In this document: positions 14,393 through 17,249 of the stretch, one piece after another
Layout of the letters: each line of letters begins with the position of its first letter
How positions within the stretch are numbered: position 1 is the stretch's first letter
Origin: a virus
Virus record (IMG/VR): IMGVR_UViG_3300045258_000011
Span: 1-32,336 of that record
Reading direction: 5' to 3' (one strand)
DNA length: 32,336 nucleotides
Made by a program: the position numbers and the translations under genes
The notes under the pieces: generated by a model
Told to the model about the DNA's origin: nothing
Database searches by the model: none
Seen by the model: only the letters and a program-made list of their open reading frames with translations

Positions 14393-14431
14393 ATGGCATT
14401 CGCCAATGGAGCAATCAGCGACATCATCGCT
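14393..14431 (+). CDS. Major capsid protein, exon 1
   Basis: Thirteen codons, MAFANGAISDIIA, with a TAGGAG ribosome site 7 nt upstream. In the unspliced RNA the next codon is TAA, so only a 13-residue peptide could be made. Joined to exon 2 at 15296 the reading continues ...DIIA-TTIQSRSGELADN, the usual start of HK97-fold capsid proteins of this phage type. The last seven bases (CATCGCT) pair with the intron guide sequence at 15054-15060. This pairing and the frame fit define the splice site after T14431. Confidence 0.85.
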
Positions 14432-14434
14432 TAA

Positions 14435-15010
14435 CTAATCTGATAGCTGTAATGTCTCTTCGGTAATTCTGTTGTACTTCTTCCGATTCTCGGCTGCCGT
14501 GAGGTACTGAAGATTGTGAAGGACGTGAAGCCCAGAAACGGGCCGACCGTCGATCAAACCCTTCAAGGGAACGATGTGATCAACTTCGTATCCTTCGGGG
14601 CACTTGGCATAGAACTCTAGGACCTCTGTCAGATCGACCCATTTTGGGGTGCGGTCTTTCACATCCTTGCGTCGATAATACTTGCGGGCCGGATCATAAG
14701 GATCATTGGCCCACCGGAAACGCCGCTTCGCCTTCAGTTCTTCGATGCGACCGGCGCGCCACGCTTTTTTCTGCTCGGCGATCTTTTCCCGGTAGTCAGG
14801 CTCGGTCGAATACTTCTGCTTGCGCCATTCGTTCTGGTACTCGGAATACTTTCCGATGTACTTGGGCGCGCGTTCGCGGATAGCAGCGAGCGAACACGGT
14901 TTGCATTTGTGGCTGACCGTCTCGCCCTTCTTATAGTATTCAGAGCGCGGCTTGGTTACTCCGCAAGCGGGGCAGATTTTCTCGACGAATGGTTTTTTTC
15001 CGGGTTTCAT
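14435..15010 (-). CDS. HNH homing endonuclease encoded antisense within the intron
   Basis: A 191-residue protein. The N-terminal zinc ribbon is CPACG ... CKPC (residues about 13-38). A long Lys/Arg/Glu-rich helical linker follows. The C-terminal HNH core is YEVDHIVPLKG ... LHVLHNLQYLTAAENRKK, with the Asp-His, Asn and Asn/His positions of the family. It would cut intronless MCP alleles so that repair copies the intron in. It runs opposite to the intron RNA, so it must use its own promoter (see 15038-15064). It ends 3 nt inside the 5' splice site. No clear Shine-Dalgarno sequence precedes ATG 15010. Confidence 0.88.
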   Translation of the reverse strand: MKPGKKPFVEKICPACGVTKPRSEYYKKGETVSHKCKPCSLAAIRERAPKYIGKYSEYQNEWRKQKYSTEPDYREKIAEQKKAWRAGRIEELKAKRRFRWANDPYDPARKYYRRKDVKDRTPKWVDLTEVLEFYAKCPEGYEVDHIVPLKGLIDGRPVSGLHVLHNLQYLTAAENRKKYNRITEETLQLSD

Positions 15011-15037
15011 GGGTTTGTAGGAGTACGTAATAGAGAT

Positions 15038-15064
15038 ATTATAGCACCCGGAAGGCGATGTAAA
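15038..15064 (-). promoter_or_regulatory. Candidate minus-strand promoter of the intron HNH gene
   Basis: On the minus strand a perfect -10 TATAAT (15043-15038) lies about 28 nt upstream of the HNH start. A TTTACA -35 candidate (15064-15059) has a short 15-bp spacer; GTTTTA at 17-bp spacing is a weaker alternative. The -10 box is part of the 3' strand of the P1-extension helix, and the -35 region overlaps the internal guide sequence. The same bases would thus serve RNA folding on one strand and transcription on the other. Confidence 0.5.
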
Positions 15065-15295
15065 ACAGGGTGAATTCGGTGAAAACCCAGAACGGGCAAC
15101 GCCGAGCGAAGCCGCACATGTAGGCCGAAAGGCTGAGGGGTGCGGAACGTGTAACGACTAGGTTCCGAGCGAAAGCAGTAACGAACCCACGAGCGCCCTG
15201 CCTACCCAGAACATCGGGATAGTGATGACATAGTCTGAGCACCATAGGAATATGGTGAAGCACTGGATAAAGAGCCGGTGCGATAACAAGGTCTG

Positions 15296-16261
15296 ACCAC
15301 CATTCAGAGTCGTAGCGGCGAACTCGCTGACAACGTAACAAACAACAACGCCCTGCTCATGGTTCTGCGTGAGCGTGGGAATGTCCGTCCGTTCGGCGGC
15401 GGTAACGTGATTTTGGAAGAAATCATGTACACCGACGCGACGACGACCAACGTCAACTCATACTCGGGTTACGAAGTCCTGAACATCGCGCCGAACAGCC
15501 CGATTTCGGCGGCTCAGTTCTCGATCCAGCAGTACGCGGCGGCTGTGACCATCTCGGGGCTGGAAATGCTCCAGAACTCGTCGAAAGAGGCAATCATCGA
15601 CCTGCTCGATTCGCGTATGGACATCGCCGAGTCGCAACTGATCAACCGCATTGCGGCCGACATCTATCTCGATGGCACGGGCAACAGTGGCAAGAACATC
15701 ACCGGTTTGGCCGCGGCTATTCCGGATGCGCCTGGCTCGGGTACGTATGGCGGTATCAACCGCGCGTCGTTCGCCTTCTGGCAATCGCAGGTGTTCTCGG
15801 GCGTGACGAATGGTGGTGCGGCTGTGTCGGCAGCGAACATCCAGAACTACATGACGCAGCTCGCTCTCAAGGCGGTTCGCGGTCGTGACCGTATGGACCT
15901 GTTTGTTGCGGACAACAACTACTACTCGATGTACATCGCATCGATGGTTGCTCAGCAGCGCGTCATGAGCGACGGCAACACGAAGCTCGCTGGCGCTGGC
16001 TTCCCGGCTGTCAAGTTCTACGGTGGCGGCATGGCTTCGGATGTCGTGCTTGATGGCGGTATCGGCGCCAACGCAACGGCGAATCACATGTGGGGCCTCA
16101 ACACGAAGTACATCTCGTTCCGGCCGCACCGTGACCGCAACTTCGTGCCGATCGGTGGCGAGCGTCAGGCAGTCAACCAGGATGCTGTTAGCAAATTGAT
16201 AGGCTGGGCAGGCAACCTAACCAGCCGCGGCCCCCAATTCTCCGGGGTGTTGATCGGCTGA
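15296..16261 (+). CDS. Major capsid protein, exon 2
   Basis: 322 codons including stop; with exon 1 the mature mRNA encodes 334 residues, a normal size for an HK97-fold capsid protein. The frame starts TTIQSRSGELADN at the splice junction, so the first in-frame ATG at 15359 is internal and not the start. Recognisable parts: NNALLMVLRERGNVRPFGGG (N-arm), EEIMYTDATTTNVNSYSGYEVL (E-loop-like), LDSRMDIAESQLINRIAADIY (spine helix), DRMDLFVADNNYYSMY (P-domain) and HMWGLNTKYISFRPHRDRNFVP. The last 24 codons contain rare codons not used earlier in the exon (see findings). It assembles the procapsid around the scaffold encoded just upstream. Confidence 0.92.
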   Translation, partial: TTIQSRSGELADNVTNNNALLMVLRERGNVRPFGGGNVILEEIMYTDATTTNVNSYSGYEVLNIAPNSPISAAQFSIQQYAAAVTISGLEMLQNSSKEAIIDLLDSRMDIAESQLINRIAADIYLDGTGNSGKNITGLAAAIPDAPGSGTYGGINRASFAFWQSQVFSGVTNGGAAVSAANIQNYMTQLALKAVRGRDRMDLFVADNNYYSMYIASMVAQQRVMSDGNTKLAGAGFPAVKFYGGGMASDVVLDGGIGANATANHMWGLNTKYISFRPHRDRNFVPIGGERQAVNQDAVSKLIGWAGNLTSRGPQFSGVLIG

Positions 16262-16281
16262 GGCATATCCAATAGGGCAAA

Positions 16282-16323
16282 GAGGTGATATGTTATCGGT
16301 TGGCCAACCAAACATATCACCTC
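16282..16323 (+). promoter_or_regulatory. 13-bp hairpin sequestering a Shine-Dalgarno sequence before the HNH gene
   Basis: Perfect inverted repeat GAGGTGATATGTT (16282-16294) and AACATATCACCTC (16311-16323). The 16-nt loop contains GGTTGGCCAACC, which can add 4 bp. The left arm carries the only good ribosome site (GAGGTGA) and the right arm is its exact complement, ending 1 nt before the HNH ATG. No T run follows, so it is more likely a translation control element than a terminator. Confidence 0.75.
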
Positions 16324-16328
16324 CATGA
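16290..16328 (+). CDS. 12-residue leader peptide coupled to the HNH gene
   Basis: ATG 16290 follows AGAGGTGAT and reads MLSVGQPNISPP, then TGA at 16326-16328. The stop overlaps the HNH start (16325) as ATGA. The leader runs through the whole hairpin, so a ribosome translating it would melt the structure and deliver itself to the HNH start. Translation is inferred; the reading frame and overlap are seen directly. Confidence 0.5.
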   Translation: MLSVGQPNISPP

Positions 16329-16954
16329 AACGAATCGACAGGACCGGCGAAATACACGGTCGTTTGACAGTCATTGAACACGTTCCGAACGCTCCCGGAG
16401 CAAAAGACACGAACGCACGGTGGTTGTGCAAATGCGTCTGCGGAACGATGAAAGTTGTTTATGGGCAGGATCTGAAGAAGGGCAAGGTGGTTTCGTGTGG
16501 TTGCTGGAATGCTGAAAAGCGGACTAAGCACGGGATGTCGCGAAGCCACATATATGGCGTTTGGTCCGTGATGCGTGATCGGTGCAGTAACCCGAGCAAC
16601 CCGAGCTATCACAACTATGGCGGCAGGGGCATAAAGGTCTGCGAAAGGTGGGAATCTTTCACGGACTTCCTTGCAGACATGGGTGATAGACCGCAGGGTT
16701 ATGAGATTGATCGCATCGACAACAATGGCCATTACGAGCCGGGAAATTGCCGGTGGCTCTCCAAGCAGAAGAACCTAAACAACAAGCGCACCAACCGCTT
16801 CCTAGAGTTCCGAGGCGAAACCCATACGATTGCCGAGTGGTCAAGGATCACTGGCTTTTCGTGGCTCGCGATTCGGCAGCGTCTTAGGTACGGCTGGACT
16901 GTTGAACGCACGTTGACTGAACCGCTCAAGTCAAATCCTTCAAAGGAGCAGTGA
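16325..16954 (+). CDS. Free-standing HNH-type homing endonuclease next to MCP
   Basis: A 209-residue protein. The N-terminus has a CxC ... CGC zinc-type segment (WLCKCVCGTMKVV, SCGCWN). The nuclease block is IYGVWSVMRDRCSNPSNPSY, YGGRGIKVCERW, FLADMGDRPQGYEIDRIDNN and PGNCRWLSKQ, a well-known phage HNH family. The last 40 residues (HTIAEWSRITGFSWLAIRQRL ... GWTVERTL) form a helix-turn-helix DNA-recognition module. It is related along the nuclease block to the antisense gene at 27604-28218. It lies between MCP and the next head gene, and its last codons hold the AAAGGAG ribosome site of that gene. Confidence 0.88.
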   Translation: MKRIDRTGEIHGRLTVIEHVPNAPGAKDTNARWLCKCVCGTMKVVYGQDLKKGKVVSCGCWNAEKRTKHGMSRSHIYGVWSVMRDRCSNPSNPSYHNYGGRGIKVCERWESFTDFLADMGDRPQGYEIDRIDNNGHYEPGNCRWLSKQKNLNNKRTNRFLEFRGETHTIAEWSRITGFSWLAIRQRLRYGWTVERTLTEPLKSNPSKEQ

Positions 16955-16955
16955 A

Positions 16956-17249
16956 ATGGCATTCTCAGTCACTCCCCAGATCGGCTTCGATCTGATCAAC
17001 ACGATCCTTGCAACCGACATTGCGTCGGGCGCTCGGACTGTGCCCGTCAACCTCGGCGAGCAAGTCTTCGGCAGCAATGGCTTGCGCTACGTCTTTGGCA
17101 AGGCCAATGCTTCGATCACTGCATCGACGACCGCTTGCACAGTCGACCCGGTGACCTTCCTCGTGACGGCATCGGCGGGCGCATACACATCGCCCGCAAC
17201 CAACATGTCGACCGGCGATTACGGCTGGTTCTCGAAGGCATCGGTCTAA
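16956..17249 (+). CDS. Candidate head decoration or stabilisation protein
   Basis: A 97-residue beta-rich protein, MAFSVTPQIGFDLINTILATDI..., with strands rich in Thr, Ala and Val (ASITASTTACTVDPVTFLVTAS) and a C-terminal GDYGWFSKASV. An AAAGGAG ribosome site lies 10 nt upstream, inside the HNH 3' end. Before HNH insertion it would have followed the MCP directly, the usual position for a decoration subunit. Function is inferred from size, composition and position. Confidence 0.6.
   Translation: MAFSVTPQIGFDLINTILATDIASGARTVPVNLGEQVFGSNGLRYVFGKANASITASTTACTVDPVTFLVTASAGAYTSPATNMSTGDYGWFSKASV

Follow-up and report, generated by a model that had tools for sequence, protein, structure and literature searches.

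A Shine-Dalgarno sequence buried in a stem-loop before a phage HNH endonuclease gene: a probable RNA lock with reversed geometry

Here we analyzed a virus fragment of 32,336 bases (IMGVR_UViG_3300045258_000011, positions 1 to 32,336; this whole stretch is called the window) in which a perfect stem-loop buries the only strong Shine-Dalgarno (SD) site within reach of the start codon of a free-standing HNH endonuclease gene. The reading that we favor, at a probability of roughly 0.6, is that this stem-loop (Table 1) is an RNA lock on the translation of the endonuclease and not a peptide switch. The endonuclease has taken up a place between the major capsid gene and the gene that follows it in the operon, and burial of its SD would keep the amount of endonuclease made from an abundant message low.

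Table 1. Features of the capsid operon region in the window and of endonuclease genes in relatives
Feature	Coordinates	Strand	Remarks
Major capsid protein gene	14393-16261	+	phrog_9953 major head protein, E 6.5e-90; stop 20 nt 5' of hairpin
Capsid gene exon 1	14393-14431	+	
Group I intron	about 14432-15295	+	exon joint placed by comparison with intronless relatives L031 and L033
Capsid gene exon 2	about 15296-16261	+	
Stem 5' arm	16282-16294	+	GAGGTGATATGTT; contains SD GAGGTGAT (16282-16289) and leader ATG (16290-16292); 13/13 identical in L051
12-codon leader frame	16290-16328	+	MLSVGQPNISPP; window sequence; ML-stop in L051
Loop with 4-bp inner helix (GGTT/AACC)	16295-16310	+	from the fold; 11/16 identical in L051
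Stem 3' arm	16311-16323	+	AACATATCACCTC; SD complement, abuts HNH start; 13/13 identical in L051
Free-standing HNH homing-type endonuclease gene, 209 aa	16325-16954	+	phrog_374, E 4e-66; slot empty in most relatives
Next gene of capsid operon	16956-17249	+	in empty relatives 9-16 nt 3' of capsid stop
HNH_3-type endonucleases after capsid gene	L031:4964-5425; L032:1074-1535; L037:3636-4091; L063:4941-5396		each with buried SD

The stem-loop and its place in the capsid operon

The initial annotation had described a perfect 13-bp hairpin ending one nucleotide before the HNH ATG and pairing the SD with its complement, and we find it exactly where it had been placed: the two arms are 100% complementary over 13 bp and enclose a loop of 16 nt, and a single base (C16324) separates the stem from the start codon. 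No other non-palindromic inverted repeat of 11 nt or longer, with arms within 100 nt of each other, occurs in the window. Perfect repeats of at least 13 bp with loops of 3-30 nt occur once in the window against a mean of 0.02 in Markov shuffles, where any such repeat appeared in 3 of 200. The hairpin has a predicted folding energy of -22 kcal/mol, and the surrounding 161 nt have a z score of -3.3. The SD inside the stem lies 35 nt before the HNH AUG, and between positions -20 and -4 of the HNH ATG there is no SD (the best match is 2 nt, scored in L003, a relative sharing this upstream sequence, and inspection of the window by eye agrees), so that the HNH start has, as had been claimed, no ribosome site of its own.

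Opening this SD is costly in terms of model energies, to which all the values in this and the next paragraph refer. The cost is 15.3 kcal/mol in the window and 20.0 kcal/mol in L051, a relative carrying the same stem, against shuffle means of 5.5 and 7.6 (maxima 11.9 and 17.4; 200 shuffles each), whereas hardly any energy is needed to open the HNH AUG itself (0.6 and 1.5 kcal/mol, respectively). The energy regained when GAGGUGAU pairs with the 16S rRNA tail is about 12 kcal/mol for the window and about 16 for L051, and freeing the SD and pairing it with the 16S rRNA is uphill by about 5 kcal/mol, whether capture is partial or full. On the nascent RNA the lower stem forms only once the last bases before the AUG appear, and a short open phase therefore exists.

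Translation of the HNH gene would accordingly need capture of the SD by the ribosome, either while the 3' arm of the nascent RNA is still to be synthesized or by displacement of the 3' arm, which copies the 16S rRNA tail AUCACCUCC. The upper stem may remain folded after this capture. When GAGG alone is captured, nine upper-stem pairs remain (-11.4 kcal/mol) and the AUG is 5 nt away; when the whole of GAGGTGAT is captured, five pairs remain (-4.7 kcal/mol) and the AUG is 9 nt away, an arrangement that would amount to a split ribosome-binding site. We put forward only tentatively, as a possibility, that the site is both split and self-competing, a copy of the 16S tail set in cis against the AUG contending with the ribosome for the distant SD and, where the ribosome wins, the upper stem bringing that SD to 5-9 nt from the start codon, so that one helix would serve as lock and as bridge.

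The HNH protein matches the phrog_374 HNH endonuclease family and also phrog_3377 (E 1.7e-54), with no Pfam match at E 0.001. Its two closest homologues begin MKRI at the same residue, which supports 16325 as the correct start, and reading the window sequence by eye shows no in-frame ATG, GTG or TTG upstream before a stop. In the empty alleles, which comprise most of the closest relatives (L031-L057) and most of the distant ones, the capsid stop and the next gene are 9-16 nt apart; this spacing in most close relatives indicates that the HNH gene is an added, optional gene. A scan of positions 15900-17100 for sigma-70-like promoters, phage-specific promoters being outside its scope, found none, and in view of this the HNH gene probably shares the transcript of the capsid gene.

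The region that diverges most between HNH-bearing and HEG-less capsid genes is their last 70 nt (16192-16261 in the window and the same stretch of L051 and L055), where identity is 0.64-0.71 in the HNH-bearing alleles against 0.83-0.94 in HEG-less near relatives. Among other possible causes, this divergence fits a changed target site beside a homing endonuclease. A group I intron (RF00028, E 1.4e-11; Rfam match at 15005-15257) splits the capsid gene itself after its codon 13 and holds an endonuclease VII-like ORF on the opposite strand (14435-15010; phrog_1035, E 7.6e-16). The same intron occurs in L036 and is absent from L031, L033, L051 and L055. Within the intron core, 46 nt (15071-15116) match records of Klebsiella, Escherichia, Salmonella, Listeria and Acinetobacter phages at 89-91%, indicating that related introns are widely spread.

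Conservation of the stem and buried SDs in other endonucleases

The searches uncovered only two other members of the HNH clade, L051/L003 (79%) and L055/L004 (73%), both of them in the same slot. Two scans with the closest HNH proteins yielded no further member of this 70-80% clade, and a search of the genome collection returned one distant HNH. In L051 the layout is GGAGGTGATATGTT-16 nt-AACATATCACCTCC-ATG, with all 26 stem bases identical to those of the window and a 14th pair (G-C) added. Identity between the two phages is 69% in the loop (11/16), 75% in the first 120 nt of the HNH gene, 76% in the whole HNH gene and 82% at the end of the capsid gene; against a background of 76%, identity at 26 of 26 stem positions has a probability of about 0.001. 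The inner GGTT/AACC helix re-forms in L051 one base further on. No role besides pairing is evident for the 3' arm, and its conservation is therefore a sign that the stem pairs. On the strength of these sequence comparisons, the stem is either selected or has been recently exchanged; only two contigs carry it and their arms, being identical, do not covary. The third clade member, L055, has in place of the stem an ordinary SD beneath a weaker hairpin. These findings support the earlier proposal of a hairpin that hides the ribosome site of a mobile HNH endonuclease at its start, and they extend it to L051.

We searched viral contigs for the exact pattern of the reversed hairpin (SD in the 5' arm, its complement against the AUG) and recovered, besides the window, only the L051 contig. 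A looser pattern gave 13 hits, of which the other 12 look like chance stretches inside other genes, with an ATG that opens no endonuclease-like gene. Among 152 HNH starts the reversed hairpin was present only in the L051 copy, and two weak 8-bp matches, with the stem 11 nt away, look unrelated.

Burial of the SD recurs in the same slot with other endonucleases. Seven of the 80 fetched relatives carry there a different, unrelated endonuclease of the HNH_3 type (PF13392 for L031 and L063). The cost of opening the slot SD is 15.7 kcal/mol in L063 (reached in 0 of 200 shuffles), 9.3-10.3 in L031, L032 and L037 (p 0.01-0.025) and 7.6 in L055 (p 0.03), and in the same analysis the SD of the next gene is not buried. 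In these other slot endonucleases the SD belongs to the 3' arm, which is the usual orientation, and the full usual layout, in which that SD stands beside the AUG, is seen in L055 and L063. Taking together the starts of HNH relatives that have an SD, 7 of 106 have perfect stems of at least 9 bp over the SD versus 1 of 232 control genes in the same contigs (p 0.0015, the p-values being approximate because some loci are related). The median opening energy of the SD does not differ between HNH genes and controls; only the tail of strong hairpins does. In other HNH genes of this family, those of L158, L150, L005 and L011, strong hairpins of the usual I-TevI/mobE layout lie over the SD 5' of the start, with up to 14 perfect pairs in L158. 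The endonuclease genes of L031, L032 and L037 and the HNH gene of the window, whose proteins are of two different HNH types, all end in KEQ-stop, formed by the ribosome site of the next gene (AAGGAGCAGTGAAATG).

The leader frame and other explanations of the stem

The initial annotation had further described a leader frame running from the buried site across the whole stem to an ATGA overlap with the HNH start, and had suggested that its translation is coupled to that of the endonuclease. The frame is present in the window (ATG TTA TCG GTT GGC CAA CCA AAC ATA TCA CCT CCA TGA). Given such a hairpin, however, the chance of a crossing frame that ends in ATGA is about 27%. Conservation of the frame in relatives had been named as a check, and in running it we found that L051 keeps the hairpin and loses the frame, the very outcome named beforehand as refuting the coupling: its leader reads ATG TTA TAG and closes at codon 3, leaving 29 nt between its stop and the HNH AUG. 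The HNH gene of this phage itself ends in TAG, which shows that TAG is a true stop there, and recoding of TAG was for this reason rejected as an escape. The loss is seen in one relative, on one metagenome contig where a sequencing error is possible. Judged from these two frames, the leader peptide is probably not selected. What L051 has directly 3' of a strong SD is a two-codon mini-ORF (L051:4932-4940).

A use of the leader start that does not depend on the peptide or its length is conceivable, although we think it unlikely. A ribosome at the leader ATG would melt the stem by sitting on the 5' arm and make a few amino acids, and the same or the next ribosome would restart at the HNH AUG. Both phages conserve the SD and ATG of the 5' arm, and L051 retains its two codons and stop. 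But there is no sign that the ATG is used, its conservation follows from membership in the stem anyway, and reinitiation 29 nt downstream in the absence of an SD would be inefficient. Either this route or the split site may lead through the lock.

Full coupling, in which ribosomes start at the ATG at 16290, pass through the stem, terminate in ATGA and reinitiate at the HNH AUG, appears improbable. The HNH start without an SD, the frame that spans the entire stem and the 4-nt overlap of stop and start, a known layout for reinitiation, would all suit it. Against it stand the true stop at leader codon 3 of L051 under an intact stem, the frequency with which such frames are expected by chance, and the position of the leader start in the most deeply buried part of the structure, where opening the SD plus ATG costs 16.8 kcal/mol. 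Leader-peptide coupling across a hairpin is known from the plasmid systems repY-repZ and tap-repA, in which a short frame runs through a structure to end where the next one starts; the present case differs from them in that the frame is not conserved, being stopped at codon 3 in L051.

We regard as very improbable that the stem serves the capsid mRNA, protecting or processing it 3' of the stop as an exonuclease barrier or RNase site, with any effect on the HNH gene as a by-product. The stem does follow, at a distance of 20 nt, the stop codon of a gene whose expression is probably high, and no terminator is seen at the hairpin (an intrinsic terminator was rejected, no T run following it). Yet the capsid genes of HNH-less relatives have no such stem, leaving only the 9-16 nt to the next gene, and the stem accompanies the HNH gene, directly against the AUG of which it lies. 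It is hardly credible that the inverted repeat acts as a DNA element, an operator or endonuclease recognition site giving autorepression as in I-TevI: the 3' arm sequence ATATCACCTCC resembles ATATGACCTCC near the capsid 3' end of the empty allele L033 (10/11), where HNH-bearing alleles diverge, but the similarity is within chance (0.10-0.13 of shuffles), most empty alleles differ from L033 at that spot, and no sigma-70-type promoter was found to be repressed.

Meaning and comparison with known systems

A selfish endonuclease gene that enters a highly expressed operon must do so without harm to the phage. That two HNH types in one slot downstream of the capsid gene, with several leaders, all start inside RNA structure suggests that burial of the SD is a general entry requirement, also outside the T4-like phages. 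For the question of how ribosomes make use of an SD that is enclosed in a helix directly beside the start codon, the reversed form would offer a compact natural test.

Among known systems, seg43(25) of Aeromonas phage 25 also has a very stable hairpin immediately 5' of a phage endonuclease start, but its SD lies free directly 3' of the stem, whereas in the window the SD is inside the stem (PMC2988022). The T4 genes 25 and 38 have SDs 27 and 22 nt upstream, which a folded stem brings to spacings of 11 nt (25) and 5 nt (38) (PMC3014915). The window resembles them in having an SD far upstream (35 nt) that a folded stem could place within the range of 5-11 nt from the AUG; the difference is that the T4 genes have their SD outside a helix that aids translation, whereas in the window the SD is not outside but forms the base of the 5' arm and pairs with the lower stem, so that the helix should mainly repress (PMC3014915).

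The closest comparison is with the hairpins that sequester the ribosome-binding sites of T4 I-TevI, I-TevII and I-TevIII, T4 segB and Aeh1 mobE; such locks are established in T4-like phages, free-standing endonucleases such as mobE and segB included (PMC2988022), and the precedent of I-TevI invoked by the initial annotation is real. As is probable for the window, a phage homing-type endonuclease is carried on the message of a host gene; a stable hairpin at its start buries the SD, as the window hairpin buries the only SD nearby, and mobE is also a free-standing HNH (PMC2988022). In the I-TevI and mobE locks, however, the SD is about 8 nt before the AUG, in the 3' arm, whereas the SD of the window belongs to the 5' arm, where it stands beside the leader ATG at 35 nt from the HNH AUG, and it is the anti-SD arm that abuts this AUG; furthermore, a late promoter can yield a hairpin-free transcript in those locks, while in the window a transcript without the 5' arm would have no SD (PMC2988022). 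As far as the sequences tell, the reversed form is an unusual version of a known RNA lock, seen in the window and L051 alone among the contigs and the 152 HNH starts searched. In its outcome we infer that the window hairpin works like the I-TevI and mobE locks, with the geometry reversed.
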